64,000 nucleotides of DNA from Bryum argenteum (Eukaryota; Streptophyta; Bryopsida; Bryales; Bryaceae), in the NCBI GenBank assembly GCA_037043015.1, contig CM073323.1:10909758-10973757 (forward strand). Reading direction: 5' to 3'. The notes below the pieces were generated by a model. The model saw only the letters and a program-made list of their open reading frames with translations. It was not told where the DNA came from and searched no databases. Positions 9,322 through 49,023 of this stretch are shown here, in pieces. Position numbers and translations under genes: made by a program. How positions within the stretch are numbered: position 1 is the first letter of the stretch; every line of letters begins with the position of its first letter.

Positions 9322-9361
9322 GTTGAAGCACAGAGTTGACTTCACAGCCACGCACACGCAC

Positions 9362-9432
9362 ACCGAGGCACCTCGCTAATTCACGAAAGACGCACACCAA
9401 CACCGAGGCAGCTGGCTAATCCACGAAGGATA
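9362..9432. repeat. Imperfect 40-bp direct duplication
   Basis: ACCGAGGCACCTCGCTAATT at 9362 is repeated with a few changes at 9402. It lies just upstream of the start of the minus-strand gene. Confidence 0.75.
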
Positions 9433-22227: not shown

Positions 22228-22718
22228 GATAGATAGATAGAAACTCCGGTCCCTTGGGGCCGGCGTGAATGAAGTGTCCATTTGAAATGTTAACATCCTG
22301 ATCATCCCGATGGCCACCGGGGAAGGGGAAATTGGAACAATACTACTTCCCCCTCTCGAGGGTGGACATTACAACTACACTACAACTACGCTAGTTACTA
22401 GTGCCTTGAGGATACTTGACATAGTATCCCCCACATCCCGATGGCCACCGGACAAGGGGAAATTGGAACAATACTACTTCCCCCTCTCGAGGGTGGACAC
22501 TACAACTACGCTAGTTTCTAGCTAGTTACTAGTGCCTTGAGGATACTTGACATAGTATCCCCCAAAGGGCTCTGAGGTACCCATACAACAAGGTCCAAGG
22601 ACCCCCACAATAGTTTGGTGGACTATGGTGGTGAGCATCAAGCCGGCATGGATAATAGAACCCACAACCTCCTCATTGGGGGCCTAAGCCCTAACCACCA
22701 AGCCAAGGCTTGTGGTGC
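22228..22718 (-). mobile_element. tRNA-derived SINE, copy 1
   Basis: It is flanked by a perfect 14-bp target duplication CTATTGGCAACATA at 22214-22227 and 22719-22732. Read on the minus strand it begins GGCACCACAAGCC, has an A-box-like TGGCTTGGTGG and a B-box-like GGTTCTATT, as in tRNA-derived RNA polymerase III promoters, and ends in a TATC/TCTA simple tail. A 131-bp segment of the body is tandemly duplicated (22306-22436, then 22437 to about 22565). Same family as 49024-49507. Confidence 0.9.
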
Positions 22719-22739
22719 CTATTGGCAACATATTTAAGT

Positions 22740-25780: not shown

Positions 25781-25839
25781 ACAATTTTTTATTTTTTATT
25801 TTTTTATTTTTTTATTTTACTTTATTTTTCCTAAGTGAC

Positions 25840-26560
25840 AAGGCCCCCCCGGACGTGATTTCCAATCCCCTATCCCATGTTCCTAATTCCTTGTTGTTTC
25901 ATCCATTTTTTATACTTCCCCCTCCTCTCTTCTTACTTTCCGTTTTCTATACCTCCCATTTCCGTTTGCGATTCCCAAATCTCCACCCCATGTGACCTAG
26001 TTCCCTTGTTCTTCCATCCCCTCGTTCTCCCCTCTCGTTCTCATGTTCCTCATTCCTTCTCCCCAAATCTTCTTACTATGTTAAATAAATCCTATCTAAC
26101 TCTCACTAACAATCAAACACCACTTATCACAACTCTTCTTCAAACGCTTCTCATGTTGTGTATGCAATCATAACGTCGCACCTATCACCTAGGAACACCG
26201 TAGAGACAGACAAACAATATTCTTTTATTATTCTTTAGATTCAATATATCCATACCTTTTACCAAATAAGAAAAGTCATCATATACCTTTACTAAGTAAA
26301 AATCATAATGTGAAGAATCATGTGTAGTTTGACTTCATGGTTAAAATATTTGTTACAAGAGGGGTTGATACTTTTTCTTAAAGAAACTTCTACAAAATCA
26401 TATGAAAATATTCTTTGATGATTCACCCTCAACACCCCCTCGCTATTTTTTAGCCAAATTTTAAAGATTTTAATTAAACACAACATTTTGAAAGTTGAAA
26501 TGAGTAGGCTGGTCTTGTGCAGACAAGTTGGTGGACAGGATAAGAAGATGCTGGACTAGA
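25840..26560. other. Upstream region of kinase gene 1
   Basis: C/T-rich sequence then AT-rich sequence with no confident coding exon. 26560-26830 is GC-richer and may contain a 5' exon ending at GGCAAG before GTATGTG (donor near 26831). Confidence 0.35.
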
Positions 26561-27300
26561 CCACGTTGACGAAGCAAGCCGCTTGGCTATGGTTTCTGGG
26601 AGAAGCTCGCTCGACGCGGATCCACTCCACATCGCTGCACCTTCGACGGGCTTGTCTTAGTCTGCGAGCACGTCAGTCTGGTGGTGCGCACGCGGCTCCC
26701 GTCGGTAATCGCTCAGGCCGTGTGGACGAGTTGGAGCGGGTTTATCGCCGCAGAGGGTTTCGTGGAGTGGCTCATTTTCTGGTTGAGACTGAGTTTCAGA
26801 GCGATCCGACATCATCTTTGCTGGCAAGGTATGTGATCACTGGGCCGTTATCGCGCCTGCAATCGGTTGCCTTGTACAGTTGGTGGGTTGGTCTCTTTGC
26901 ATCGATGCAAGTGCTGTGTTGGAATCAAGTTGCTCTCTTGTGTTGGACTGTTGGGTAGAGGTCTTGGGAGCTTCTTGTGGTGTCTCGTGATAGCTTCCAC
27001 TCTTTTCTTCTGATATCTGCTGTGAGATTTTGATGAACATGGACTACAATGAATTGCAGAACTTGGTCATAGCTTGATCGCACCGAGGTTTTGATGGGGC
27101 CGGTCTCATAAGACTACTCACGGGCACAGACGTTGAATCACTGGGACACAGTAATCGACAGGAGCAGGAAGTTGCACGTCACTCATCTCTAGGACCGGCT
27201 CAGATCGGATAGCCTATTGAGTATTCTCAGTGATCGAAGTGGCCGTGGTGATCCTCGTTCCACTTGTGAACTAAAAAAGTGGAAGACGGGCAGCGCGGCA

Positions 27301-28637
27301 ATGGGCAACTCCGTAGGCACCAGGAGACAAGCCTTGCTTCCCTCCGATCCTCGGGAGTCGAAATATTTCATGCCCAGGTAGCAAGGGGATGTCGTAATGT
27401 CATCTTTGGTCTCTCTTTTATTTGTATGCAATTTACTCTGGTTTGGCTTGTTATATTAGTCCATAACTAATCCTTTCTATTTTGTGGAATCAATGACTGC
27501 AGGCATTGCGAAAGGAGTGAGAAGGATTGGACATGTCCTCGTCTTGGGAGTTGCTCTTGTCCGCGGGATGCATTGCCGTTATCATCATGCGTGTTTTACT
27601 CTCCACACATTCAAGACTTGATTGAAGGCGAGAGAAGTGAATCAGAGACTAGTCAAGCACATTGGACTGAAGTAAATGACAAGAATGATGATGAGATGGT
27701 GAGGGTTGGAGAGGAGAATCGCAAGTACTTTGATGAGGTATTGAAGAAGGATGCAAGATGGGGTGGGTTCTTTTCAAAGTTTGAGGATTTGATTGTGTTG
27801 GAGAAAATAGGCGAGGGTGGCCAAGCAGAGATCTTTGAAGCTAGAATGAGGTATGGAGAGTTCAAAGATAACAAGCTTGTGGCGAAGGTATTCAAGATGA
27901 ACATGCCTTTGAGAGATCTCAAGCAACAATGGCCTCTTGATTATTTATGTAGACTGAATAAACCTTCTTACAGTTGGAATCCTTTCAGAATGGTATACGG
28001 AGGAGCATTTATAAGGAGGGGTATTCACAAGAACAAATTTGCTTTTGTGATGGAGAGAAGGGTGTGTGATTTGCGAGCCCTTATTGACGAACGCATGTTG
28101 GAGTTGGTGCGCTCAAATAGCCATGGGCCACCTTTTGGTGACTTTAAACTAGTTTTAAATATGTTAGATTTCATTGCATGGAGCATGGAGAGACTACATG
28201 AGCGTGGAGTTGTACATAGAGACGTAAAAGCATCAAATGTGCTTTTAGGTGAAGAACGGTACAAGCACTTTGCTATGTGTTATCTCATGGATTTTGAGTG
28301 TGCATTGGGTGCAATGGGTACTGGATTTTGGAGAGCACCTGAGATCCTTGAACAAGTGGAAAGGGGAGTGCCAAGCCAAGAAGTGGTGTTTACAAAAGAG
28401 AGTGACATTTATAGTTTCGGGATGTTGTGCTATGAAGTCGTAACAGGACGCATTCCTTTTGATGGGCATCTTGTAAATGATTATAGCATAGTTCTTGAAG
28501 GAGCACGACCAGAATTACCATGTACCCTTGATTCGACTTTGAGAAGACTTATACTTGATTGTTGGGAAGGAAATCCTGCGCGTAGGCCTACAGCATCCAT
28601 GGCACGACGAATGATCTGTACTCCACTGTACTCATAA
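27301..28637 (+). CDS. Protein kinase gene, copy 1 (tyrosine-kinase-like type Ser/Thr kinase)
   Basis: Exon 27301-27377 joins exon 27503-28637 over a 125-bp intron (donor GTAGCA, acceptor CTGCAG), giving 403 residues from the MGNSVGTRR start. The intron join yields KYFMPRHCERSEKDW and a Cys-rich segment CPRLGSCSCPRD before the kinase domain. Domain landmarks: glycine loop KIGEGGQAEIFEA (about 128-139), VAK lysine (about 154), HRDVKASNVLL (about 264-274), DFE in place of DFG (about 289-291), GTGFWRAPE (about 298-306) and SDIYSFGMLCYEV. The catalytic Lys, Asp and Asn are all present, so activity is plausible. The substrate is unknown. The true start is uncertain: the frame stays open upstream to 27193, and another frame (27034-27180) also looks protein-like. 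If MGN is the start, it fits an N-myristoylation signal. Confidence 0.85.
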
Positions 28638-28639
28638 GA

Positions 28640-31480
28640 ATAAAGATGACTAGTTACTTACATTTACGTCCACTGAATAAAATGTATATCATTTAGTATG
28701 GCTCTAAGTTTCTCCAATGGTTGCGTATTCAATTGGTTTGCTTTTTTTGATTGTGTTGTGATGTGCAAGCACAATCTTGTAGCACAATAAGTATTCAATT
28801 CCTTGTTTTCACAACTGAAAGTAAGAGGTTTTCTTCTCCTTCACTACTTGATAATGCTAACCTCTTGAACTCATCGATACTATGATACTAAATACGCATT
28901 ATAGATATTATTCAACAACATGAAGAATCCTCTCTTATAGATATATAGCATTGCACTTAATATTGTGGCGGTAACAATTGTTCAACTTAAATTTTCTTGA
29001 ATATAGCAAACTTGAATAGCAATTATATATCCAACATCTGAAAGCTTTCATATACATTGGAATTTCTTGCTTAATTTTGAAGCTCAAGTCTCTTAGAATG
29101 ATTACCAAATAGGAAAGTTATTGTCTTAAGAAATTTAACCACTTCATGAAAGCTACAGTGTATTTCAAAACACATCCAAGTCTTTTGCTAACCTCGAGGT
29201 TTCGGGGGTTAGATATGAAACCCAATCAATAAGTCTTTGCAATATAGACAAGAATAATATATATTATGGTACAATGCAAGTGGCCAACATGATTGCATTG
29301 GCAGTGGTATTAATTGTAGCATAAAAGCAGGTGCCATTAGTAATGACTCATGTATGTATAACACTATTGTCATCTTGTTTCTTTTTATCACACTAAGTTT
29401 AACATGTTTTTTAAAATTTCTATCATCAACTACACCATTGCTCGTGACTGTTCGCTAGTAGTCAAATGATGTACTCTGAGCGCTCGGCAAGGCACCCCTT
29501 TGATGTTTGTGGTGATTGCAGTACATGGAGTTGATAGATTTCTCTATAAACATGTTAAACTTTAAGTATATGTCTATAATGATACGCCACACTCCCAAGT
29601 GGCCACCCAAGATGGTGATGATGCCTCCAATTACTTGATTCATTTTGAAATAGGTGATTGATGGATTCCAAATGGATCTTGTTTAGTTTGTCTCTAGTTT
29701 CTTGCAGCCAAACACCATTTGAGTAGTCTGCAATTATTGAGACACATAACTTTTATTAGCCCCTATACGACTTTGGGGAATTTTTAACGAAAAACTCATT
29801 TCTAAAAAAAGTGACACCGATGAGAATATAGGTAAGCTATTCAGATCTCAGCCATACAAACTTGTAGTAGACTTGTTGTAAATCATGTACTCCGAACATT
29901 GATTCATGGGACCTTACGGAGTGCAAGATCGTAACGATTTATGAACTTTGCTTCATAGTGAAAATACTAGGAACATGATATTTGCACTGAAAAAATTATC
30001 AACTAGGAAGTTGTTCATATCATCTCAAAGTCTCTATTGTACCAAAAACATGCATCAGAAACCCATCTTGGCACAAATAGTAGCCTTGCAATGGTAAAAA
30101 TTGCAAAACATTTTACAAAGAAAATATTTCAAAACTAGACCCCTTGCATTCAAATCCATGCCTTATCTCTAATACATCTTAGATCGAGTCAAGGTTTCTA
30201 CCACAAATATTAGACTATGATTGAAATCCACTCCAAGGAATAAAGTCAGAAACTCATAATACAATGGTGGATGAAGGAGGTGTAGCTCCTCAAAAATCAT
30301 CCATTCATTTACTTTTTTAATCGTAGAAACATCATTGCAAATCCAATACTACAGTTATCCGGATCAAAATCCTTCCAGTTACAAAGTTGTTGGAATATAT
30401 CTAAAGATCACAGTGATGTAGATAAAAATGCATGAAAAACTTCTTTTGATCTTACATAATTGGCTTGCAATGGAAAAATATGCCAAATGTTTGAAAATAC
30501 AAAAACAAAAGTTGCCTTCACTAAAATGCATGTTGTTTATTTATACTTTATTGTACGGGTCTGCATCTTTTACTACAAAATCTAGACATTAGAAGAGAAT
30601 CGGGTTCTTGGAGGGACCAAACTAGAACTGCGTTTTTCCAAAAAATGATACATGGGAAATTCAAGAAAAATAGCAAAGAGCGATGCGTACATGGCACCTA
30701 AGGTGATAACATTTTAATGTGGAAAGGTTATCACCAATCACATGAGGTGGAAGAAAACAAAAGAAATTCAATGAATATGAAAATTGAAAGCCCTAACATT
30801 AAAAATAATAACGGAAGAGTGGTATTTGCAGTGAACGACTCACTAGAGTGTGCATCGGTGTACATTGCAACACTTCATTTCTTGCATGTTTGAGTGTGAT
30901 CTCCGTACTTGCTCGCTCTGTTGATGTTTATGGCCAAATCGGCAAGGTGTCATGATGTGGGTGCCACCTCAACTCACGTGATACCCATATGCGCCGAGTT
31001 GTTCAAAGTTTATGAGGTCAACTCACGTAAAGGACATTTGTGATGACCTTGACTATTTTGTGAAAACAAACAATTAATTTCCAAGCCAAAAGTACTAGGC
31101 ATGTTGAAGCTCCAATTTCCCTCTAATGCTAGATTATGACCCAACCCAATTGATTTTGTCCAAAACAAGTTCGTATAAAGAAGTTATGGCTCTTGTAGCG
31201 TGTGATTTTTGAACCGTCGAATATACCCCGAATTTGGCATCCAGAAGCTTTGTGAGTAGTGGATCAAATGCCATGAAATCATATATTGCTACAAAGCTCT
31301 TAGAGAGAGCTTTTCATTGGCGCCAAAGTAACACAATTGATTCTCAAAATTGAGCTTAATAACAGTATGGGATAGAGGGAGTATAATGTTACCTTTTACA
31401 CCCTCTTTCTTTACCAAAAATTTTACACCCTCTTTTTTTTCCAAAAATAACCTAACGTGCTCCAATACGTTTGTAGAATT
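28640..31480. other. Downstream region of kinase 1, no gene recognised
   Basis: AT-rich, conserved in unit 2 (36690-38574 and 45557-46900), without a coding motif. Confidence 0.5.
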
Positions 31481-31502
31481 CTCAAACAATGATTTACGTG
31501 AT

Positions 31503-31774
31503 CGATATGAGTTGGTCTAGAGTTACGAACGATCGATCGTGGCCTTCGAGCTCATACGACTGATTTGCATATGAAAGAGGCTCCTGATGCTGATACCCAT
31601 TGTATTCTCGATGTTTGCAGCTTCGGAGAGGCTACTGTTGCTTTGCTGGGGATTGACGATCAAGTGGTGAGAGATTTCGACATGCCGTTCTCTTTCGAGG
31701 ACGGTCGTTTGAGTATCTCAATGCATAATCTGAGTCCCTGGCAAGTTTACTCTCCCTATCGTCCGTGTTTCTGA
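31503..31774 (+). pseudogene. Conserved short coding-like fragment, copy 1, family unknown
   Basis: It reads HMKEAPDADTHCILDVCSFG then EATVALLGIDDQVVRDF. The same words occur at 46896-47132 in the other unit (KVAPDADTHCILDVCSFGEA), but the frames diverge after VVRDF. It may be an exon or a gene remnant. I do not recognise it. Confidence 0.35.
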
Positions 31775-31779
31775 AATGT

Positions 31780-33770
31780 TCATTAGAACAACTTCCAGTT
31801 GCTTATCTCCTGTATTTGGAGCTTATACAGTATTTGTAATTCGGTGATATCAATATAACAACGTAAGTTTATAACAGTTCTGTATTCCTAAGTGAGGTTT
31901 CAAAACTTTTATTCAATGAAGGAAGGTTCAGGAAACCCTAAAATGTTGTGACTAAGTAGCATGCTTGAAAGGCTGTTGCAATCAATATGTGGTCTTGTCT
32001 TGATGCTGTTGAGGCGAGTGTATTGACTCTTCGCAATAGAAGGAAGACGATGCATCATAGAGCTTACGCTTGATTCTTGGAATTCTTGGAGAATAAGCTC
32101 CGCTTGGATTATCGATACATTTTCGTTCGTTGTCACCCGATCCATAGTATCGATCCTTCTGTAACCTTCTTGTTAGGAAGGAAGCATTTACTGCGAATTG
32201 AACAACTGGAAGCAGAATCGGGAATCGAGCAACTCATATACAATGGAGTTTACACTTTTGCGTCATTCTAAGTTGGGATTCATTTGAGTTGGACTATGGT
32301 TCCCTTTGGTCTAGTACACCATCAGAGCTATTTTTTTCTGTTTGAAGAGACCGAAACTGTAGTTTGTTTGAAAATATGAAGCTGCTTGAATTCAGTACAT
32401 GTAGTGGTGGACATGGAAATCTCACTGGATCCAGAAACGAGATGTTTGGAACTTTGATTTGGGGACACGTTCGAGTTTGTTGTGCTTCATTTACTGCATC
32501 AAACTTGAGATAAAATGCGCTTTAGGGTTTAGGGTTTGGGTTTGATAGCTTTAGATTCTGGGACAACTCTGTGTTGTGCATGTCGGTTACATTGGGCATC
32601 CATGTCTTGCTTTAAGTTCATGTTAATTTTACCTTTGTTGATTCATGCACTTTATATTTCAGATGTGGAATATACAACAAGTAATGTTCCTTGACTTAGA
32701 AGTCCATAACGCAATCTTGTTTAAGTGGCGCTCTTCTAGGTGACAAGGATTTGCATGTTTATGTCCACGTAATGGTATTCTCTATAATATCACACTTTCT
32801 GTAATTGCATGATACCAATTATATTCTATAATATCACTTGTGAGTTTGAATGACGGGACAATAAGTTGAGGCGTGCCATTTTAGCAAAAGAAACCATTTT
32901 AATGGAATAAGATCTCGTGTATTCCTCAAAGTGTCTCCTTCACATTGACAAGTGATTGTCTAATGCAAATCCGGACAAGAACTAGGTATGAAATTCTTAA
33001 CCCCTAAAGGACCATGGTTTTCATAAACACCCAAATTCATAATATCATTTGTTGAATATATGCCAACAAAAAGATCATAACGTTCACAATTGATTGATTG
33101 AAAAGGTTTTATGGGCTTTGCTTGAAAATGGTGCCGAGGGAGACTTGATGATTGTTACTCCAAACATTTGGCTCATATTTTCTTCCATGTAGGCAATCAA
33201 ATTGAGTCACTCATGCAGATTATTAGAGGCTCAATTTGCTTTTTTGACCTTCATGCAAGTTATTTTCTAGAAGGAGGTCTACAAACAACGATATAGTAAA
33301 ACATGCATTTAATTAGATGTAATTGGTTCCAGAAAAAAAATGAACGGCGAGTAGGTGCGTTTATGAGTTTATGAATTTTAAGAGTATAACAAATTGGAAA
33401 AAATCCAAAATCTTGAATATTGATAAATTTTGTAAGAAATAATTTGGAAATTAATAGATATTGTGAAGATTGTTTTTGAATATTTGGAGGTTGCCCTTGT
33501 ATATTTGACGATCTCTTTTACCTAGATCACTTGAGTACTTGACCAATGATTTGGTAATGAAAATAATTCTATAAAAAAATTAACAAAATGTCTAAATTTC
33601 AAGTGTCCTATTTAAACATGAAATCTTAAAATTCTACATGAGGGTTTTAACATTGAATCTTGGCTTGCAAATTTTACCACATACACTTTACATCTTACAG
33701 TGAACGGGGCAACCGACAACTCTTTGATATACACTATGAAATATGGAATGAGCTTTGATTCCATTGTTTT
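31780..33770. other. No gene recognised
   Basis: AT-rich. It includes the 550-bp stretch absent from unit 2 and a stretch near 32780-32910 (CTATAATATCAC, GCCATTTTAGC) reminiscent of the MITE at 20877. Confidence 0.4.
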
Positions 33771-33776
33771 ATTTTT

Positions 33777-33880
33777 TCTATATATATATATCTATCTATA
33801 TATATATATATATATCTATTATTTTTTTCTATATATATATATTTTTTTATTATTTTTTAAATTTTTAATTTTTTTTTTTT
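33777..33880. repeat. TA/TATC microsatellite and T-rich tract at the unit boundary
   Basis: Runs of TATATA and CTATCTA followed by poly-T lie exactly between duplicated units 1 and 2. Confidence 0.9.
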
Positions 33881-35346
33881 CCTAAATGAGAAGGCCTCCC
33901 ACACCTGATCTCCCATCCCCTATCCCATGTTCCTAATTCCTTGTCATTCATTCATTTTTTATACTTCCCCCTCCTCTCTTCCTACTTTCCGTTTTCTACA
34001 CTTCCAATTTCCGTTTGCGATTCCCAAATCTTCATCCCATGTCACCTAGTTCCCTTGTTCTTCCATGCCCTCGTTCTCCACTCTCGTTCTCATGTTCCTT
34101 GTTCCTTCTCCCCTAATCTTCTTACTATGTTAAATAGATCTTATCTAACTCTCACTAACAATCAAACACCACTTATCACAACTCTTCAAACGCTTCTCAT
34201 GTTGTGTATGCAATCATAACGTCGCACCTATCACCTAGGAACACCGTAGAGACAGACAAACAATATTCTTTTATTATTCTTTATATTCAATATATCCATA
34301 CCTTTTACCAAGTAAGAAAAGTCATCATATACCTTTACTAAGTAAAAATCATAATGTGAAGAATCAATCATACATGTGTAGTTTGACTTCATGGTTAAAA
34401 TATTTGTTACAAGGGGGTTGATACCATTTCGAAAAGAACTTTGTACAAAATCATATGACAATATTCTTTGATGATTCAGCCCTCAACACCCCCTCGTTAG
34501 TTTTTAGCCAATTATAAAGATTTTAATTAAACACAACATTTTGCAAGTTGAAATGAGTAGGCTGGTCTTGTGCAGACAAGTTGGTGGACAGGATAAGAAG
34601 ATGCTGGTCTAGACCACGTTGACGAAGCAAGCCGCTTGGCTATGGTTTCTGCGAGAAGCTCGTTCGACGCGGATCCACTCCACATCGCTGCACCTTCGAC
34701 GGGCTTCTCTTATTCTGCAAGCATGTCAGTCTGGTGGTGCGCACGCGGCTATCGTCGGTAATCGCTCAGGCCGTGTGGACGAGTTGGAGCGGGTTTATCG
34801 CCGCAGAGGGTTTCGTGGAGTGGCTCTGGTTGAGACTGAGTTCAGAGCGATCCGACATCATCTTTGCTGGCAAGGTATGTGATCACTGGGCCGTTATCGC
34901 GCCTGCAATCGGTTGCCTTGTACAGTTGGTGGGTTGGTCTCTTTGCATCGATGCAAGTGCTGTGTTGGAATCAAGTTGCTCTCTTGTGTTGGACTGTTGG
35001 GTAGAGGTCTTGGGAGCTTCTTGTGGTGTCTCGTGATAGCTTCCACTCTTTTCTTCTGATATCTGCTGTGAGATTTTGATGAACATGGACTACAATGAAT
35101 TGCAGAACTTGGTCATAGCTTGATCGCACCGAGGTTTTGATGGGGCCGGTCTCATAAGACTACTCACGGGCACAGACGTTGAATCACTGGGACACAGTAA
35201 TCGACAGGAGCAGGAAGTTGCACGTCACTCATCTCTAGGACCGGCTCAGATCGGATAGCCTATTGAGTATTCTCAGTGATCGAAGTGGCCGTGGTGATCC
35301 TCGTTCCACTTGTGAACTAAAAAAGTGGAAGACGGGCAGCGCGGCA

Positions 35347-36686
35347 ATGGGCAACTCCGTAGGCACCAGGAGACAAGCCTTGCTTCCCTCCGATCCTCGG
35401 GAGTCGAAATATTTCATGCCCAGGTAGCAAGGGGATGTCGTAATGTCATCTTTGGTCTCTCTTTTATTTGTATGCAATTTACTCTGGTTTGGCTTGTTAT
35501 ATTAGTCCATAACTAATCCTTTCTATTTTGTGGAATCAATGACTGCAGGCATTGCGAAAGGAGTGAGAAGGATTGGACATGTCCTCGTCTTGGGAGTTGC
35601 TCTTGTCCGCGGGATGCATTGCCGTTATCATCATGCGTGTTTTACTCTCCACACATTCAAGATTTGATTGAAGGCGAGAGAAGTGAATTCGAGACTACTC
35701 AAGTGCATTGGACTGAAGTAGATGACAAGAATGATGATGAGAAGATGAGGGTTGGAGAGGAGAATTGCAAGTACTTTGATGAGGTATTGAAGAAGGATGC
35801 AAGATGGGGTGGGTTCTTTTCAAAGTTTGAGGATTTGATTGTGAAGAAGAAAATAGGCGAGGGTGGCCAAGCAGAGATCTTTGAAGCTAGAATGAGGTAT
35901 GGAGAGTTCAAGGATAACAAGCTTGTGGCAAAGGTATTCAAGATGAACATGCCTTTGAGAGACCTCAAGCAACAATGGCCTCTTGATGATTTATGTGGAG
36001 TGAATGACAAACCTTTTGTGATTTGGAATCCTTTCAAAGCGGTATATGGAGGAGCATTTATAAGGAAGGGTATTCACAAGAACAAATTTGCTTTTGTGAT
36101 GAAGAGGAGGATGTGCGATTTGCGAGCCTTTATTGACGAACGCATGTTGAAGTTGGTGTCCTCAAATAGCCATGGGCCACCTTTTGGTGACATCAGACAT
36201 GTTTTACAGACTTTAGAATCCATTGCATGGGGCATGAGGATACTACATGAGCATGGAGTTGTACATAGAGACATAAAAGCATCAAATGTGCTTTTAGATG
36301 AAGAAACTCACACATACTTTAATCGGAGTTATCTCATGGACTTTGAGTGTGCATTGGGTGCAATGGGTACCGGATTTTGGAGAGCACCTGAGATCCTTGA
36401 ACAAGTGGCAAGGAGAGTGCCTAGCCAAGAAGTGGTGTTTACAAAAGAGAGTGACATTTATAGTTTCGGGATGTTGTGCTATGAAGTCGTAACAGGTTGC
36501 ATTCCTTTTGATGGGCATCCTAAAAATGATTACAACCTAGTTCTTGAAGGAGGACGACCAAAATTACCGTGTACCCTTGATTCTACTTTGAGAAGACTTG
36601 TACTTGATTGTTGGGAAGGAAATCCTGTGCGTAGGCCTACAGCATCCATGGCACGAGGAATCATCTGTACTCTATTGTTCTCATAA
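35347..36686 (+). CDS. Protein kinase gene, copy 2
   Basis: Same structure as copy 1: exon 35347-35423, 125-bp intron, exon 35549-36686, 404 residues. Landmarks kept are KKIGEGGQAEIFEAR, LVAKVFKMN, VVHRDIKASNVLL, DFE, GTGFWRAPEIL and SDIYSFGMLCYEV. It differs from copy 1 by scattered substitutions across the kinase domain and one extra residue (CGVNDKPF region), while its first exon, intron and upstream 400 bp look identical. All catalytic residues are present. Likely a recent paralogue; function and substrate unknown. Confidence 0.85.
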
Positions 36687-36699
36687 GCATAAAGATGAC

Positions 36700-38574
36700 T
36701 AGTTACTTACATTTACATCCATCAAGTAAAATGTACATCATTTATTATGGCTCTAAGTTTCTCCAATGGTTGCGTATTCAATTGGTTTGCTTTTCTTGAT
36801 TGTGTTATGATGTGCAAGTACAATCTTGTAGCACCATAAGTATTTGATTCCTTGTTTTTACAAATGAAAGTAAGAGGTTTTCTTCTCCTTTACTACTTTG
36901 TAATGCTAACCTCTTGAACTCATCCATACTAAGATACTAAATACGCATTGTAGGTATTATTTAACAACATGAAGAATCTTCATTTGTAGATATTTAGCAT
37001 TGCACTTAATTACTGTGGCGGTAATGATTGTTCAACTTAAATTTTCTTGAACTTGGCAAACTTGAGTAGCAATCACACATTCAACATTTGAAAACTCAAG
37101 CATTTATTATATTATCAATTTCAAATGGTAAGTAGCTATGTTGTATACCACAAGTAAACTTACTATATATATGTTTAGAAACTTGGTGAGTTGGGATTCT
37201 CGTCAACTTTAATGAATCTTGTCCAAATACATAGGCAACAAGCTTTCAACCACATACATGGCAAGGTGTGCTTGGAGTCAAAAAACTGACTATGTTATGA
37301 AACTAATGGCATTCTTTTTATGTTAGTAGTGGCCTTTATAGAGTTCAACTTGTAATGTATTCGATCAACAGATTCCATCACATCTGAGCTACGACTTACA
37401 TACATTAGAATTTCTTGCTCAATTTTGAACCTCAAGTCTCTTAGAATGATTACCAAATAAACAAAAGTATTAGATCAAGAAATTTAACCACTTTGATAAC
37501 TTTTAAACACCAAGATCTTAAATAAAACTTCATGAAAGTTACAAAGTATTTCACAACACATCCAAGTCTTTTGCCAACCTCCAGGTTTTGGGGGTTAGAT
37601 AAGAAACCCAATCAATAATTGTTTGCAATATAGACAAAAATGATAAATATTCATGGTACAATGCAAGTGCTCAACATGGGTGCATTGGCAGCCGTATTAA
37701 CTGTAGCATAAAAGCACGTGCCATTGGTGATGACACCCGTATATATAATACTATTGTCATCTTCTTTCTTTTTATCACACTAAGTTTAAGATGTTCTTCA
37801 AAAATTCTATCATGAACTACGCCATTGCTAGTGACTATTCGCTCGTAGTTTGATGATGTACTCTTAGCACTCGGCAAGGCACCCTCTTGATGCTTGCGGT
37901 GATTGAAGTACATGGAGTTGATAAATTTTCTATGGACATGGAACTTTAAGTCTATGTCTAGAATGATACGCCACACTTCCAAGTGGCCACCCAAGATGGT
38001 GATGATGCCTCCAATTATTTGTTTCATTCTGAAATGGGCCATTGATGGATTCCGAATGGATCTTGTTTAGTTTGTCTCTAGTTTCTTGCAGCCAAAAGCC
38101 ATTTGAGTAGTCTGCAATTGATGAGACACATAACTTTTATTAGTCCCTATACGTCTTTGGGATATTTTTAACGAAAAACTCGTTTCTAAAAAAAGTGACA
38201 CGGATGAAAATATAGATAAGCTATTGAGATCTCAACCGATCAAAATTTTAGTAGACTTGTTGGAAATCAGGTAGAGCAAGCGTTGACTCATGGGACCTCA
38301 TAGAGTGCAAGATCGTAACAATTTAGTGCGCAAAAAAAGCTCCTAAAAATTATGAGCTTCACTTTGAAGTCGAAGTTCTACGAAAATGATATTTGCCATT
38401 ATAAATCACTGACTAGAAAGTTGCTCATCTTCATCTCAAAGTCTCTGTTGTACCAGAAAAATTCATCAACAACACATCTTGGCTCAAATAGTAGCCTTGT
38501 AATGGTAAAAATTGCAAAACATTTTACAAAGAAAAAATAGTCCAAATCTAGACCCCTTGCACTTAAATCCATGC
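36700..38574. other. Downstream region of kinase 2, no gene
   Basis: AT-rich. It parallels 28650-30170 with a local extra segment near 37100-37400. Confidence 0.5.
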
Positions 38575-38917
38575 CTTATCACCAGGGTTGTCAGGACGAC
38601 CGGACCACGAGGCGACCGGTCGACCATGGTCCGGTCGTCCTCAGCCCCTAGGACCTGTCGGTGACATAACGGGTTTTTTATAATTTACATGGGGTAAATT
38701 ACCGTCCGCAGGATTTTTGTATGGCCGACCGCACCCCCCGTCCGACCCTTGGACCGGCCGACCGGTGGTGGGACCGGCGTCTGCAGGGCCGACCGATGTG
38801 AGGACCGGCGAGGTCGGCGGCCGACCGGTGGCGGGACCGGCGAGGTCGGCCGCCAATCGGGGGTCGGACCGGCGGTCGTCAAAGAAGTCGGATCGGATCG
38901 GTTGATTGATCGATCGC

Positions 38918-39246
38918 TGCATTGGCTCTTCAAACTTCAAATGCCCATAACTTCGTCAAAACTTATCCGAATTGCTCATTTAAGATGTTTTTAGACATCT
39001 GCAAAACATTTAGATGCCAAAAAACACCTTAAGTGCACAATTTGGATTAGTTTTGACAAAGTTATAGGCCTTTGAAGGTTGAACGGCCTTTGAAGGCCTA
39101 TAACTTTGTCAAAACTAATCCAAATTGTGCATTTAAGATGTTTTTTGGCATCTACATGTTTTGCAGATGTCAAAAAACATCTTAAATAAGCAATTCGGAT
39201 AATTGTTGACGAAGTTATGGGCATTTGAAGTTTGAAGAGCCAATGC
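38918..39246. repeat. Palindrome A inside the hAT-type element
   Basis: TGCATTGGCTCTTCAAACTT at the left is inverted at the right end. The arms meet around GGCCTTTGAAGG near 39070-39100. Arms are about 155 bp with few differences. Confidence 0.85.
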
Positions 39247-41925
39247 AGGCAATCAGATCGGCCTCCGACCGATGTGCCGACCGATTCAACGGCCGGCGAC
39301 CGATTCGACGGCCACACCCGGTCGGCCCACCCAACCTTCTTCTTTCAATACCCCTTCTCTTCCTAACTTCCCTTCCTCCCCCCCTCCCAAATGCTTGACT
39401 TTCGTGACAAATGAAAGGATCGTTGAGACTTACTGTTTTAGGACGTACAATCTAACATATATAGGCCTAATCGGGAAATTTCTAATACTTGTATTAATAG
39501 TCAAAAGAATGTCCGAAAGATTCTCTTGCAAGAAGGACCATATCCCTAAAGGAGAAGCTCTAGAGTGACCTCCAAGACGGCCATATCTCAAATCTGCGAA
39601 CAAGTTTTTTTGAATTTGATTTTCGGATATCCAACCGTAGGATCTTGGTCATAACGGTTGAATTAGTTGATGTCCAACGGTTGAGTTTTTACTTTCTAGA
39701 AGTTTGGTGAGTTAGGAACCACATCCAATTTACAAAACCTCATTTGAAATCATAGATTGTTCACACCAAGCCTTCAAACACAAACATGACAAAGTTTTCT
39801 TACTGTTAGAAAACTTACTATTAGGGGAAACTAATAGTATTCTTCTTGAGTTATTAGTAGCCTTTTTCTATTTTATCATATATCATATAATATTAGCCAA
39901 TCATATCAAATTTCAAGTACTAATAATAGAAAGTGTCATTTCTATTGATTTTTAAAGTTTTACCCTTTTTAATTCATTACAAAATGAATATTTACTATTT
40001 TAAGAAATTCAACCGTATCGATCTAATTTAAACATTAAGGTCTTCATATTGTTCTTAGAGAATAACTTCATAAGGGTTAGGGAACTCACATTTCATAACA
40101 CATCTAAGTTTTTATCCAAACCCCTCGGGCTTTTAGGGGTTAAATGCTCCCAACTCTCATATGTTAACTGAAAACATTATCAAAAGCATTAATAAGCTTT
40201 AAATGGTACTAAATGGATAGAATATTAGTATTATATGAATCTTACTATACCACCAACTTGTATATTCAAATATCTATCTACTATCCCTCGTATTTTAAAT
40301 CTTGTTCACAATCTCTTACTCTCAATTTTAATTTATTATTTTTCAATTTTAATGAACATATCACCCCCCAAGAATTCTTAATCTTGGTCTTATTTTATTT
40401 AAATTGATATTTCTAAAGCTTGATTGATAACTAAATTTCACATATCAACTTAAAGTAAAAAAATTCAATAATTAAATGGAAGCATTTAAAATCTTAATTT
40501 AAACCGTAAATAATTTTAAGTTGTACTAAATGGATACTTTAACATACATATGTGGATAATATACATTCTATTTTACTTTTGAGAAAGTTGGAAGTTAATG
40601 CAATCTAATAATTGTAATAAATTGTCAAATTGTCCAATAGGCACAAACATTTACTGGAACGTGGTTTACGTAGTCTATAATCTATAAAAAACCCAAAATA
40701 CTATGCGGTCTACGTATGAGAGATGGAGGTGATTTAGTAATTACGACTTGTGTGAATAAGGTACAAAAGGGCATTAGTCACATTAGTCACAACCTACAAA
40801 AAATTAGATAAAATTGTGTGAGGTCCTTCTTGACGTAGATGAGGAAGAAGAGGAGAAAATCCAGCCAAGATAGCAAATTAGATTTGTTTAATTCCTACTC
40901 TACCCCTACCTTGTGTTTTAATTTCTATCTACCAACGCTAGTATTTTAAATCTTGTCCGGCAACCTCAACTTCTAATTTTGATTTATTGCCTTTCAATTT
41001 TAATTAACATGTAACCCTCCTATATAATGTAAATCTATATGATATTTTACTCAAAACTTTAATTTCAAAAGTTTGTCTTCTTGCCTTAATTATCTTCTTT
41101 AATTCCCAATTTATTTAATTTTTTGAAATTGCAAGTATCCTCCTATTAAATATTAATTTTTTTTCTTTCCTTTGTAATTTACATCTACCGCCCCCTTCCC
41201 CCAAATTTCATTCCTTTGTTTCACTCTAACAACTTAATTTCGCACCACTCTCCAAAAACTACAATTAAAAACTCAAAAATGAAACTATTAAGTTCAATAG
41301 TTTATATATATACCCATAAGTATACCCCTTAACCCCTAAAGGAGAGTTTGACCCGAATCAGGTCGATTTGCTTCAAAAGATATGATGCTTTTTACAAAAA
41401 CTGAAACTTTGACTCAATATATCTCAAGATTCGTACATTGAAATCTAATAAAAATTGATGGGTAGACTAAATCAACCGTTATGAACAAGATCCTACGGTT
41501 GGATTTCCCAAAATCAAATTTTAAAAAAATAATTGTTTGCAGATTTCAGATATGGCCGTCTTGGAGGTCACTCTAGAGCTTCTCCTTTAGGGATATGGTC
41601 CTTCTTGCAAGAGAATCTTTCGGACATTCTTTTGACTATTAATACAAGTATTAGAAATTTCCCGATTAGGCCTATATATGTTAGATTGTACGTCCTAAAA
41701 CAGTAAGTCTCAACAATCCTTTCATTTGTCACGAAAGTCAAGCATTTGGGAGGGGGAGGGAGGAAGGGAAGTTAGGAAGAGAAGGGGCATTGAAAGAAGA
41801 AGGTTGGGTGGGCCGACCGGGTGTGGCCGTCGAATCGGTCGGCACATCGGTCGGAGGCCGATCTGATTGCCTGCATTGGCTCTTCAAACTTCAAATGCCC
41901 ATAACTTCGTCAAAAATTATCCGAA
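39190..41925. repeat. Large inverted repeat 1 inside the hAT-type element
   Basis: The left arm (about 39190-39690) is repeated inverted at about 41450-41925. Shared strings include AAGTCAAGCATTTGGG, GGCCTATATATGTTAGATTG, GAGTGACCTCCAAGACGGCC and CCAACCGTAGGATCTTG. The arms enclose an AT-rich centre of about 1.75 kb with no long frame. Confidence 0.9.
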
Positions 41926-42009
41926 TTGCTTATTTAAGATGTTTTTTGACATCTGCAAAACATGTAGATGCCAAAAAACATCTTAAATGTTCGATTTGGA
42001 TAAGTTTTG

Positions 42010-44770
42010 ACTAAGTTAGGGGCATTTCAAGTTTCTGCAGGCAGTCACATCGGCCGCCGACCGATTTGCCGACCGATCCAACGACGGCCGACCGATCCTA
42101 CGGCCCACACCCGGTCGGCCTCTAGCACTCCCCTCTCTCCCTCTCCCCTCTCTCACTCACGAGCCCTTCCTCTCCTCTTCTTCCTCCTCTTCAATGTATT
42201 TAAGAACTTTCTATTTCGAGGACCTGACATCATATTCTCAGCCAAATTCAAGGCATCGACCCACGTGCCACATTCTTTGGGGAATGTCAAGAAGATTTTA
42301 TTGTAATCTATGAGAATTTTTTATTTGAATAATCTTATGGGCTTGGATATGAAAAATAGAACTTTTTATGTATAGGTCCACTTTGTTCATATGAATTTTA
42401 GTTTTCACTATTCATGAACCATTCGACATGCTCAACGAGTAAAATGTCCACATGTTTTCATAGAATTTGCAATTTCTTCATATTGACATATGATAATGAA
42501 AAAGAATGTGGTCTTTGTTTTTTTACAGATTTAACCATCTTTTGTTTGCCTCGTAATGGGTCATTCTTTTTTTAAGGGTTAAAGTGAACATGTATTGGTG
42601 ATGAAAAATTGTAGTATTCCAAAATTATGTTACTTCACCTCTCAGTAGCAGCTTGAAGTAAATTCTATGAAACGTATGGAATAAATTTAAGCATGAACTA
42701 AATTGGAAGGCTAATAGCATTCATACAATTGTGTGAATAAATAGAAATATAAAATAAAACTTCCAATGTAAATTCGTATAACCCAAATTCAATAGACATG
42801 TGTATAAACTAGTATATGCTAATATTTGTTTTTTGAGTGCCTAATAGGATTCAAAGATTACATTTCTATAAGACTTTCCTATATATATAACAAGTTACAT
42901 AGTGGCAATGTGTAAACTTAGACTATGCATTTATCGTTTTTGGTCAATGTTCATAACTTCCACACAAGAATGATTCTTTTCTAGATTTATGGCCTATGTT
43001 ATTTTTTGTTTATGTATAAAATGATCTATTTTTGAGTTTTTATTTTATCAATTCTTGTTATTACAAGAAACTCCATTTTGACATAATTTACATGTATATT
43101 GGAAATATTTGACAGTACAACTTACGGATTATATTTTAAACGTTCAATATATTGCACCTTGTAATATTCTTTCATATAAAATTCTAATCCTACATTACTT
43201 TATTAACAGACATCATGTACCCTATAATTTTTTTATAATATATTGTTGTTTAGCATTCTTGGATTATGATTAAACTTGAGTTTTATCTAAGTGTAAGGTT
43301 TTCTATTTATATTGCGTACATAATAATTTTTTATCTTCTCTAGTATGATTTCTCTTCACATTATAATTAGAATACTTTTTAAATGACTTATACAAAGCAA
43401 ATAAGAATTTTTTTTTATTGTCTATTATTCCATGATAATAAATAATGATAATTTTAACCAAAGCCAAATAAAATTTCAAAAATCTACTAGTTTTATAATA
43501 TATAGCATTGGAATATTAGTATACTTGTTCCTACAGTTGTAGACTCATATGTTATTTTAATACGCAATTGGATAATATTAACTTCAATTGATTGATATGG
43601 CGATCAAATTTGTATTGAATAAGAATATTCTTTGTAGAAGCCTCTTCTTAGCCTCAATTAGATACTTTCTATTCATCTTGTTCGACCCCTATAATATTAT
43701 GCATTTTTGTCAAAGGACTTTAAAAACTTACACTCAAATACTAAATGCCCCCCGGGTTGAATTTGAATATGAGGCATGTTCCTAAAATTCCTTCTTTGGA
43801 CAAAAGGAAAGAAAAGGTAATTTTAAATACACAAAATGTAAAGATCTTTATATTTTCTTTTTACAGTTGTAAAACTATAATATGCGTTAAATAGTAAGTA
43901 ACATCTTATTGATCTTCATTATCCCCTAAAGATCATTGATACAAAATTGTCTAAATTATCAAGAAGAACCTTCTTCTACTTCAGGCCCAAAGAAACTCAA
44001 TCTAAGGATTAATAAGAAGATCCAACCGTAGGATCTTGAAGTTAACTTGACCCTTTACTCGAATGTTGAATTTGAACCGTTGATATTTCTCCAATTTTGA
44101 GATTATAATGGTCAAAGTTGGCTGAATTTTTTCCCTGCGGAAATCCCAAAAAGCCATTTCGACTTTCTTGGATCTTTAGGGGTTATTAGAGTATGTGAAT
44201 TATTGAGAAATTATCAAAAGTGGCTTGAGTCTAGTTTATGTCTTAGTTCAAATAGAGAGACTTTAATTCCTAAAGATCCTTGATGCAAAATTGCCTATAT
44301 TCTCTACAATAATATTCTTCTACTTGAGGCCTAAAAAGCCTCAATTCAAGCATTATATAGAAGACTCAACCGTAGGATCTTAAGGTCACATGTCAAATTT
44401 CAACCTTTCATATATCTCCAAGACCATATGATTATTCAAATAAAACATTCTCATAGATTACAATAAAATCTTCTTCACATTCCCCGAAGAATATGGCACG
44501 TGGGTCCATGCCTTGAATTAGGCAGAGAATTTAATGTCTGATTCCCAAAATAGAAAGTTCATAAATGCGTTGAAGGAGAGGAAGAAGAGGAGAGGAAGGG
44601 CTTGTGAGTGAGAGAGGGGAGAGGGAGAGAGGGGAGTGCTAGAGGCCGACCGGGTGTGGGCCGTAGGATCGGTCGGCCGTCGTTGAATCGGTCGGCAAAT
44701 CGGTCGGCGGCCGATGTGACTGCCTGCAGAAACTTGAAATGCCCCTAACTTAGTCAAAACGTATCCGAAT
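42010..44770. repeat. Large inverted repeat 2 inside the hAT-type element
   Basis: The left arm (about 42010-42330) is repeated inverted at about 44440-44770. Shared strings include GCCGACCGATCCAACGACGG, CTAGCACTCCCCTCTCTCCC and ATTGTAATCTATGAGAAT. The arms enclose an AT-rich centre of about 2.1 kb with no long frame. Confidence 0.9.
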
Positions 44771-45050
44771 CGAACATTTAAGATGTTTTTTGACATCTAC
44801 AGAACATGTACTTGCCAAAAAACATCTTAAACATCCAATTTGGACACGTTTTGACGAAGTTATAGACCTTTGAAGGTTTGACGGCCTTTGAAGGCCTATA
44901 ACTTTGTCAAAAATAATCCAAATTGTGCATTTAAGATGTTTTTTGGCATCTACATGTTTTGTAGATGTCAAAAAACATCTTAAATAAGAAATTCTGATAA
45001 GTTTTGACGAAGTTATGGACATTTGAAGTTTAAAGAGCCACTGCAGGCAG
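44735..45050. repeat. Palindrome B inside the hAT-type element
   Basis: Same design as palindrome A: TAACTTNGTCAAAA and ACATCTTAAAT strings appear in both orientations around GGCCTTTGAAGG near 44890. Confidence 0.8.
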
Positions 45051-45556
45051 TCAGATCGACCGCCGACCGATCCGACGGCCTTGCCGACCGCTGGTCCGAC
45101 CCCCGGACCGCCCCGGCGACGGCTAGCCCGACCCCCGACCGCCACGGCGACGGCCAGCCCGACTCCCGGACCGCCATGGCGACGGCCAGCCCGACCCCCC
45201 GATCCGTCGGCCGCGCCCAGATCTGACGGCCGTCGGGCATGCGGACGGCGGCCCGATCCAACGGCCCGCAAGCGCCTGAAATTGATCCGACGGCCATGAT
45301 CTACTGCGGTCGGCCGCCGTCCGATCTGACGGAGCGACCGGAGGTCGGTCGGCCAGACCGGGGATCAAATTTTGACGGCTGAGATGTGGTCAGGTGGATG
45401 ATCCAACGGTCTCTGAAGTTACCAGGGACCGGGGTAACTCGCATTTACCCCCCCGGACCATGGTCCGGACTATGGTCCCGGTCGACATAGTCCGGACTAC
45501 GTCCGCGGACTAGGTTTACCTCGAATGTCGACCGATTTGACAACCCTGCTTATCAC

Positions 45557-46895
45557 CAATACATCCTTATCTTAGATCGAGTCAAGGTTTCTAGAACAAA
45601 TATTAGACTATGATTGAAATCCACTTCAAGGAATAAAGTAAGAAACTCACAATACAATGGTGGATGAAGGAGATGTAGCTCCTCAAAAATCATCCATTCT
45701 TTTACTTTTTTATTGTAGAAACATTCATTGCAACTCCAATACTAGAGTTACCCGGACCAAAATCCTGCCAACTACAAAGTTGTTGGAATATATCTAAAGA
45801 TCACAATGATGTAGAAAAAAATGCATGAAAAACTTTTTTTGATCTCACATGATTGGCTTGCAATGGAAAAACATGCCCAAACTTTGAAAATACAAAAACA
45901 AAAGTTGCCTTCACTAAAATGCATGTTGTTTATTTATACTTTATTGTATGGGTCTGCATCTTATACTACAAAATCTAGACATTAGAAGAGAATTGGGTTC
46001 TTGGAGTCACTAAACCAAAAATTGGGTTTTCCCAAAAGAAAGATAAAGGAGAAATTCGAGAAAAATAGCAGAGAGCAATGCGTATATGGCACCTAAGGTG
46101 ATGACATTCGAATGTAGAAGGGTTATCACCAATCACATGAGGTTGAAGAAAACAAAAGAAATTCAATGAATATGAAAATTGACAGCCCTAGACATTAAAA
46201 ATAATAACTGGGGAGTGGAATACGCGGTGAAGGACTTACTAGAGTGTGCATCGGTGTACATTGCAACACTTGATTTCTTGCATGTTTGAGTGTGATGTCT
46301 GTACCCGCTCCGTTCATGTTAGTGGCCACATCGGCAAGGTGTCATGACGTAGGTGCCACCTCACCCACCCACGTTGTTCAAAGTGTATGAGGTCAACTCA
46401 AGTGAAGGAATTTTTAATGACCTTGACTATTTTGTGGAAAACAAACAGTTAATTTCCAAGCCAAAAGTACTAGGCATGTTGAAGCTCCAATTCCCCTCTA
46501 ATTATGCTAGATTATGATCCAACCCAACTAATTTAGTCCAAAACGAGTTTGTATAAAGAAGTTATGGGCTTATGGCTCTTGTAGCGTGTGATTTTTGCGT
46601 CAAATGTACCCCGAATTTGGCATCCAAAAGCTTTGTGAGTAGTGGATCAAATGCCATCAGATCATAAATTGCCATCAAATGCCATCAAGTCATATATATA
46701 TCAAATCTTAGAGAGAGCTTTTCATTGGCGCCAAAGTAACACAATTGATTCTCAAAATTGAGCTTGGGACAATATGGGATAGAGGGAGTATGATGTTACC
46801 TTTTACACCCACTTTCTTTACCAAAAATTTTACACCCTCTTTCTTTACCAAAAATAACCTAACGTGCTCCAATACGTTTGTAGAATTCTCAAACA
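45557..46895. other. Continuation of unit 2 after the insertion, no gene
   Basis: It follows 30170-31500 of unit 1 closely. AT-rich and non-coding. Confidence 0.5.
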
Positions 46896-47132
46896 ATGAT
46901 TTGCGTGTTCGATATGAGTTGGTCTAGAGTTACGAATGATGGTGGCCTTCAAGCTCATACAAATGATTTGCATATGAAAGTGGCTCCTGATGCTGACACT
47001 CATTGTATTCTCGATGTTTGCAGCTTCGGAGAGGCTATTGTTGTTGCTTTGCTGGGGATTGACGGTCAAGTGGTGAGAGATTTCGGCATGGTTCTCTTTC
47101 GCGGACGGTCGTTTGAGTATCTCAACGCATAA
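46896..47132 (+). pseudogene. Conserved short coding-like fragment, copy 2, family unknown
   Basis: It reads MSWSRVTNDGGLQAHTNDLH then KVAPDADTHCILDVCSFGEA and LLGIDGQVVRDF. It is the counterpart of 31503-31774 and ends soon after. No family recognised. Confidence 0.35.
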
Positions 47133-47549
47133 TCTGTGTCCCTGGTAAGTTTACTCTAGCTCCCTATCGTCCGTGTTTCTGAAAGAACAACTTGCAGTTG
47201 CTTATCTCATGTATTTGGTGCTTATATTAATGTATTTGTAATTCAGTGATATCAATATAACAGCGGAAGTTTACAACAGTTCTGTATTCCTAATTCAGTG
47301 AGGTTTCGAAACTTTTATTCAATGAAGGAAGATTCAGGAAACCCTAAAATGCTGTAACTAAGTAGCATGCTAATGTGTGCTTGAAAGGCTGTTGCAATTA
47401 ATATGTGGTCTTGTCTTGTGCAAGTAATTGGTGTTGTTGTGCCGACTGCCGAGTGTATTGACTCTTCGCAATAGAAGGAAGACGATGCATCATAGAGCTT
47501 ACGCTTGATTCTTGGAATTCTTGGAGAATAAGCTCCGCTTGGATTATCG

Positions 47550-47801
47550 TACTAGAGAAGCGGCATTGTATTGCCGATTCGGTAGTATGGTGAGGTCACT
47601 GGCGAGCCCATAGGGCGAGCCAGCTGGCCAAACCATACTGCCGAATCGGCAATACACTGCCGCTTCTCTAGCGTTAAAGGAGGAGAATCGGCAAGGCTGG
47701 CCGATTATGAACGGGCAGAATCGGCACTCCACCTCACTTGCCGATTCTACCTAAAAAAAATCTTTATAAACTAGCCGAATGAGACATACGGTCCTTTAAC
47801 G
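47550..47801. mobile_element. 252-bp foldback insertion specific to unit 2
   Basis: Unit 1 reads GGATTATCGATACATTTT with no gap; unit 2 is interrupted after TTATCG. The insert has a hairpin at 47552-47671 with near-perfect arms of about 39 bp (CTAGAGAAGCGGCA ends), followed by a second segment bounded by CGTTAAAGGA (47672) and TCCTTTAACG (47792-47801). A possible 2-bp CG duplication flanks it. Family unknown. Confidence 0.75.
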
Positions 47802-48955
47802 ATACATTTTTGTTTAAACTCTTCGGGGTTGTCACCCGATCCACAGTATCGATCCTTCTGTAACCTCTTTGTTAGGAAGGAAGCATTTACTCACACGAGG
47901 ATTTGCATGTTCATGTCTACGTAATGGTATTCTCTATAATATCACACTTTGTTGTAATTGTATGATACCAATTATATTCTATAATATCACTTGTGAAATT
48001 GAACGGCACTACAATAAGATGAGGCGTGCCACTTTAGCAAAAGAAAACCATTTTAATGGAATAAGATTACGTGTATTCCTCAAAGTGTCTCCTTCACATT
48101 GACAAGTGATTGTCTAATGCAAATCCAAACAACAACTAGGTAACTATGAAATTTTTAACCTCTAAAGAACCACGGTTTTCTTAAACCCCCAAAATCAAAT
48201 TTTCATTCGTTGGATATATACCAATGGCAAGATCATAACGTTCATAGTTGACTGAAAAGGTTTTTTGGGCTTTGCTAGAAGACGTTGTCTAAATGGTGCC
48301 AAGGGAGACTTGATGACTGTTACTCCAAACATTTGGCTCATATTTTCTTCCATGTAGACAATCAAGTTGAGTCACTCATGCAAAATATTAGAGGCCCAAT
48401 TTGCTTTTTTGACCTTCATGCAAGTTATTTTCTAGAAGAAGGTCTAAAAACAATGATATAGTAAAACATGCATTTAATTAGATATATTTAGTTTTAGAAA
48501 AAAAATGAACGATGAGTAGGTGCGTTTATGGATTATAGATTTTGAGAGAAAAACAAATTGGAAAAAATCCAAAATCTTGAATATTGATAAATTTTATAAG
48601 AAATAATTTGGAAATTACTAGAAATTGTGAAGATTGTTTTTGAAAATTTTGGAGGTTGCCCATGTTAATTTGACAATCTCTTTAACCTCAATCACTTGAG
48701 AACTTGACCAATGATTTGGTAATGAAAATCATTCTATAAAAAAAATTAACCAAAAATCTAAATTTCAAGTGTCCTATTTAAACATAAAATCTTAAATTTC
48801 TACATGAAGGTTTTAACATTGAATCTGGCTTTGCAAATTTTACCACATACACTTTACATCTTACAGTGAACACGGCAACGGACAACTCTTTATTATGTAC
48901 TATAAAATATGGAATGAGCTTTCATTTCAATTTTTTATTTTTCAATTTCTATAAA
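47802..48955. other. End of unit 2, no gene
   Basis: It parallels 32740-33790 of unit 1. AT-rich. Confidence 0.5.
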
Positions 48956-49023
48956 TGATGTGAATCATTTTTAATGTCAAGAGGCACCATGGATGAGGAG
49001 ATTATATTGGTGTTCAAAAGTGA

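Follow-up and report, generated by a model that had tools for sequence, protein, structure and literature searches.

A 6,966-bp insertion at positions 38583 to 45548 of a 64,000-nucleotide stretch of Bryum argenteum DNA (the window, with a GC content of 41.9%) probably arose when two hAT elements, each with long inverted repeats, fused within a palindromic unit designated p and were then mobilized as one unit. This reading draws on the boundaries of the insertion, on an empty site, on a p unit (p3) that is chimeric and on inverted-repeat arms that match within but not between pairs, all of which are observed in the DNA.

The insertion is located in unit 2 (33842–48956) of a tandem segmental duplication of about 8 kb, whose unit 1 spans positions 25788 to 33791. 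Its ends are 11-bp perfect terminal inverted repeats (TIRs), CAGGGTTGTCA at 38583 and TGACAACCCTG at 45538–45548, and an exact 8-bp target duplication, CTTATCAC, flanks it on each side (38575–38582 and 45549–45556, plus strand). Unit 1 aligns to both of these flanks without the insert (30082–30242, plus strand), and near 30162 it carries, as the counterpart of the left duplication, a single CTTATCTC that agrees with CTTATCAC in seven of eight letters. The preliminary description of this DNA had held that the ends and the duplication are intact, that the boundaries are certain and that unit 1 preserves the empty site, and these statements stand. An exact 8-bp duplication next to an 11-bp perfect TIR occurs six times in the window, comprising the element itself and five self-palindromic 8-mers within the arms of inverted repeat 1, and no such combination was present in any of 100 Markov-simulated windows. 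Near the insertion, the two units are identical at 656 of 758 and 916 of 1017 aligned bases. This close agreement, together with the empty site in unit 1, indicates that the insertion postdates the tandem duplication.

The surroundings contain several other features. Units 1 and 2 are joined at a (TA)n tract (33779–33842), and each carries a kinase-like ORF (27471–28637 and 35517–36686). An inverted repeat pair (22305–22720 and 49455–49024; 82% over 437 bp) flanks the duplicated region, and a further insertion in unit 2 (47550–47827), absent from unit 1, consists of a foldback of about 125 bp (47551–47675) and GCCGATT repeats. In addition to the kinase-like ORFs, Pfam searches of the window revealed a Methyltransf_29 gene, an importin-5-like gene and piggyBac-type transposase fragments, the last being two separate matches to PF13843 on the minus strand at 9706–11016 (E 7.4e-41 and 1.6e-9). 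Beside these fragments, also on the minus strand, lie three consecutive ORFs of 381, 191 and 291 aa (6753–9375) for which no Pfam match reached the cut-off, and which possibly represent another mobile element.

Several features of the insertion are typical of hAT transposons, including the 8-bp target duplication, seen on both sides and as the unit 1 empty site, and the short TIRs, which are perfect over 11 bp (CAGGGTTGTCA). The TIR begins with CAGGG, and in this respect it presumably resembles the TIR of Ac. Like non-autonomous hAT elements of the Ac/Ds type, the insertion combines a short TIR starting with CAGGG, repeated subterminal motifs and an 8-bp duplication that fits the pattern nTnnnnAn; it differs from them in its 7-kb length, its two internal long inverted repeats and its palindromes. 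The duplication CTTATCAC, which represents one site only, has T at position 2 and A at position 7, in keeping with the nTnnnnAn target pattern given for Hermes in excerpts of PMC10368747.

The preliminary description had called this a hAT-type element with no transposase and no long frame inside, and both the ends and the coding content bear this out. The element is overlapped by 41 stop-to-stop frames of 50 aa or more, and the longest of them, located in the GC-rich right end, measures only 204 aa. No transposase remnant was detected by Pfam in the 17 of these 41 frames that were scanned, where no match reached the curated cut-off and neither of two weak ones (E 0.048 and 0.067) bears any relation to transposases; because the frames run from stop to stop and were left unjoined across stops, a badly decayed transposase could escape such a scan. 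Thus, the hAT family cannot be confirmed by protein. A full-text literature search with the CAGGGTTGTCA string gave no transposon paper, judged by title, among the matches listed.

The element is built from a series of modules. Its left end (38583–38916) consists of the TIR followed by a GC-rich subterminal region with GACCGG and GGCCGACC motifs and a 32-bp tandem repeat (38755–38874). Next comes palindrome P1 (38917–39248), made of units p1 and p2, with p1 matching the reverse complement of p2 at 93%. The left arm of inverted repeat 1 (39244–39667, plus strand) begins with a shared GC block (39244–39327) and continues as the X arm; after the AT-rich loop L1 (39668–41465), the right arm (41466–41874, minus strand) comprises the X′ arm and its GC block and leads into p3 (41871–42034). 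To the right of p3 lies inverted repeat 2, with a left arm (42035–42365, plus strand) formed by a GC block (42035–42120) and the Y arm, an AT-rich loop L2 (42366–44394) and a right arm (44395–44729, minus strand) formed by the Y′ arm and a GC block. L2 contains a 113-bp direct repeat (43925 and 44269; 80%). Palindrome P2 (44730–45031; units p4 and p5) and the right end (45032–45548), with a GC-rich subterminal region, a 32-bp tandem repeat (45096–45199) and the TIR TGACAACCCTG, complete the element.

When delimited by BLAST, the arms of inverted repeat 1 (39093–39667 and 41466–42026) are 92.4% identical and those of inverted repeat 2 (41869–42365 and 44395–44895) are 88.2% identical, so the two large inverted repeats do lie side by side, as first reported, adjoining at a p3 unit that is common to both. 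The two palindromes described earlier as having the same core, P1 and P2, indeed carry TAACTTYGTCAAAA, and p3 is an additional, single p unit that was absent from that description. All five p units are related, and each is quasi-palindromic, with a self-inverted identity of 0.72 to 0.82. Folded as single-stranded DNA, P1 reaches −169.9 kcal/mol (shuffle mean −34.1), the P2 region −101.3 (shuffle mean −26.9) and p3 −50.7 (shuffle mean −14.2). The sequence CAACCGTAGGATCTT occurs in four copies, all within the element (39632, 41487 on the minus strand, 44023 and 44367), which places one copy in each X arm and two in L2; besides p and the GC blocks, no other sequence was seen to link both halves.

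The structure of p3 locates the joint between the two halves. When p3 was aligned with p2 and p4, both reverse-complemented, 40 informative sites were obtained. Up to position 41971, 27 of 28 sites match the reverse complement of p2, the p unit of the first repeat, whereas from position 41990 onward 10 of 12 match that of p4, the p unit of the second repeat. The left half of p3 therefore groups with X′, and its right half with Y. The MaxChi value of this switch, in a test that takes sites as independent and chooses the breakpoint itself, was not reached once when the order of the sites was shuffled 100,000 times. The switch falls within CAAAAAACATCTTAAATG (41972–41989), an 18-bp segment that is the longest run identical between the two parental sequences, the next longest being 16 and 13. 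For this single copy, both the boundaries of the element and the chimeric nature of p3 are solid.

The GC blocks tell the same story, matching within pairs and less so between them: X and X′ agree at 64 of 64 positions (with 40 gap columns) and Y and Y′ at 84 of 85, compared with 74 of 84 for X and Y. Past the GC blocks, the X and Y arms are unrelated, as are L1 and L2, except for a 19-bp motif. Within each inverted repeat, arm identity is high next to the junction and lower toward the loop. Inverted repeat 1 has 3 mismatches in 440 positions at 39130–39588 versus 9 in 79 at 39589–39667 (Fisher 4e-6), and inverted repeat 2 has 3 in 189 at 41972–42160 versus 22 in 185 at 42161–42345 (Fisher 4e-5), where the cut points were set after seeing the data and the Fisher values are descriptive. 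This gradient fits either gene conversion that homogenizes the arms or younger sequence near the junction.

These comparisons bear on whether a second parent is needed at all. An element might have grown on its own if DNA stalled or broken at a palindrome were repaired by fold-back copying, such that arms and p units would form step by step. The relatedness and hairpin-forming capacity of all five p units accord with such growth, as do arms that repeat each other in inverted orientation and are highly similar close to p. However, X and L1 are unrelated to Y and L2, and at least one of these sets must therefore have come from outside; moreover, the GC blocks differ by 12% between pairs versus 0 to 1% within them. 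Growth within a single element thus appears rather unlikely.

Under the preferred reading of a fusion between two elements, we infer that separate, related parents, alpha on the left and beta on the right, would each have possessed ends of the hAT type and a GC-rich subterminal region, together with palindromic p units, the common GC block and an AT-rich loop enclosed by a long inverted-repeat arm of its own. With mirrored ends assumed, alpha alone would measure about 3.9 kb and beta about 4.2 kb. The right p unit of alpha would have recombined with, or template-switched to, the left p unit of beta. Such an end-to-end fusion is possible because the quasi-palindromic p allows the right end of one element to pair directly with the left end of another. 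At this step alpha and beta would have lost their inner ends, leaving the composite with the outer left end of alpha and the outer right end of beta. A hAT transposase provided in trans would then have moved the composite as one unit, probably by way of the terminal repeats and subterminal motifs. The exact matching 8-bp duplication and an empty site that matches both flanks argue for insertion as one unit, and the most economical interpretation is a chimera that had formed before its insertion at this site. By comparison, excerpts of a study of Galileo (PMC3573991) describe chimeric copies produced by exchange in place that are bounded by different 7-bp sequences, in twelve copies.

Some observations run against this model or complicate it. 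The composite is present as a single copy, and neither alpha nor beta is seen alone. The P1 and P2 centers share the same orientation (56 of 60 identical when aligned directly, versus 39 of 55 plus 10 gaps when inverted), and p5 is closest to p2, also in direct orientation (0.95). Mirror-symmetric parents would give inverted centers, so the direct arrangement calls for a later inversion, such as a flip inside a palindrome, or for further exchange. Together, the direct centers and the likeness of p5 to p2 indicate that a single crossover is probably too simple a history. Conversion at the site itself, once the element had inserted, may represent an alternative route.

The main alternative for the order of events is gap repair after insertion, in which alpha would have inserted first and later gained Y-L2-Y′ from beta while keeping its own right end. 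This order also accounts for the matching target duplication, and p5 is indeed near both p2 (0.95 direct) and p1 (0.91 inverted), with p4 as the outlier. Yet the right end of alpha should then mirror its left end as closely as the arms of inverted repeat 1 mirror each other (437 of 440), whereas p1 and p5 agree at only 0.91 and the outer GC-rich regions mostly fail to align. We therefore regard fusion in place as unlikely. Alignment of the outer GC-rich ends is confined to the 11-bp TIR and some 73 bp adjoining P (80%), separated by short motif matches. Foldback-type elements are marked by long, internally repetitive inverted repeats that extend to the ends; long inverted repeats and p units are present here, and the outer ends align over these two stretches only.

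The preliminary description had proposed that the element grew by the insertion of related foldback elements into one another. The first part of this proposal is sustained, given that the two inverted-repeat pairs are foldback-like and related, sharing p units and GC blocks while differing in arms and loops. Mutual insertion fares less well, as there is no convincing internal insertion footprint and the junction between the halves is a sequence switch in p3. The modular make-up with repeated p units is what the insertion of one foldback element into another could produce, and the segment 39096–44867 has inverted ends (9 of 10) with CTTTGAAG on both sides, a sequence that also fits nTnnnnAn. 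As a nested element this segment was rejected: the element has four copies of CTTTGAAG, two in the center of P1 and two in that of P2, and since these centers are direct repeats, the 8-mer belongs to the p sequence.

Scans of the element for duplications beside inverted ends point the same way. With 10-bp ends and up to 2 mismatches, 10 matches were obtained (block shuffles: mean 1.3, maximum 6), consisting of the true ends, five self-palindromic 8-mers in the arms, three AT-rich near-matches with 2 mismatches and 39096–44867. With non-palindromic duplications of 5 to 11 bp, 11-bp ends and up to 1 mismatch, the true ends were the only 8-bp match, accompanied by two 5-bp matches and one 6-bp match inside the internal repeats. 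Neither scan thus gave a convincing inner duplication of a target site framing inner inverted ends; apart from the true ends, non-palindromic duplications of 7 to 11 bp next to 11-bp inverted ends were absent. Nor does the element contain an internal copy of CAGGGTTGTCA with 1 mismatch or fewer. Nested insertion also leaves the chimeric p3 unexplained, and we consider it quite unlikely. That the element is instead a transcribed locus carried by a transposon, whose long hairpins function as a small-RNA source, is very improbable, for even though its long inverted repeats could form double-stranded RNA, as judged from the folded DNA, the window contains no Rfam match at gathering scores. No tRNA was found in the window either.

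The GC-rich clusters that had been noted near the arms were recovered as blocks with a GC content of 0.63 to 0.70. Their CpG observed/expected ratio is 1.17 to 1.37, compared with 0.46 and 0.60 in the two flanks, and this lack of CpG depletion fits youth, lack of methylation or selection. According to excerpts of PMC10368747, hAT transposases bind subterminal repeats besides the tips, and Hermes requires about 220 terminal bp at both ends. By analogy, the GC-rich ends, dense in short motifs whose counts are unequal between the two ends, could be putative transposase-binding regions. Read from the outside inward, the ends contain GACCGG 10 times (9 left, 1 right; 1.2 expected) and GGCCGACC 6 times (0.04 expected), counts to be viewed against a shuffle maximum for 6-mers and 7-mers of 9, which is near or above them. 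Because the strongest hexamer is left-biased, we do not claim a single shared binding site.

Loop L1 contains a segment (39697–40145, plus strand) that resembles host DNA at 37176–37600, with 284 of 422 aligned bases identical (67%; BLAST E 7.6e-36) and a local score of 222 versus at most 53 in 30 Markov controls. The host match is non-coding and lies about 500 to 900 bp downstream of the kinase-like ORF of unit 2. Weaker matches to L1 are present in unit 1 (29001–29140 and 29162–29214), and since the L1 match extends over the border of a stretch that unit 1 lacks, this unit probably lost its copy of that stretch. The similarity may reflect capture by L1 of a diverged paralogue of this host DNA, or else an undescribed repeat present in both places. 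No match of this kind to the left flank was seen for L2 or for the X and Y arms. Pack-TYPE elements, including Pack-hAT, carry host DNA that was captured between their ends (PMC8903248, in excerpt), and a captured-looking host segment, lying outside the kinase-like ORF, is present here; because this segment is non-coding, the element may fall outside the definition by capture of a gene (CDS) fragment.

Several known transposons, judged from excerpts of the studies cited, share part of this architecture and differ in other respects. Galileo of Drosophila, a member of the P superfamily, likewise has long, internally repetitive TIRs and chimeric copies, the latter formed by exchange between subfamilies (PMC3573991). 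It belongs to a different superfamily, and its chimeras have unlike 7-bp flanks, in contrast to the matching duplication seen here. Mutator-like elements with multiple long TIRs from tomato, Arabidopsis, rice and maize (PMC3310237) share with this element the extra internal long TIRs, a target duplication on the outside with none around the inner TIRs and a mostly non-autonomous nature; they too represent another superfamily, and the mechanism is left open there, whereas the switch is placed within 18 bp here. Composite insertions of maize Ac (PMC4270019) are joined structures made by a hAT system, with transposon ends and 8-bp duplications at their borders, and some arise by homologous recombination. 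Unlike the present element, both halves of which are element-like, they hold flanking genomic segments and arise by alternative transposition at one locus.

A search of the full-text literature, with most subscription journals outside its scope, gave no description of a hAT element fused in this way. In two sequence collections without plants, the p-core pattern had no match in viral_contigs and one in genome_contigs; the latter, 27 bp in a contig with 58% GC and bacterial-type frames, was dismissed as a chance match.

The origin of elements with multiple TIRs is said to be not clear in the excerpted discussion of tandem-TIR Mutator-like elements (PMC3310237). In the element described here, the position where the two halves meet is narrowed to 18 bp of a palindrome, and the matching target duplication gives a chimeric structure the flanks of a single insertion. 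A possible, if doubtful, extension is that p serves as a joining module: by recombination in direct orientation between the right end of one element and the left end of another, members of this hAT family would keep being linked end to end to form larger composites. If this is true, such composites would still transpose as single units and would carry pieces of host DNA with them.
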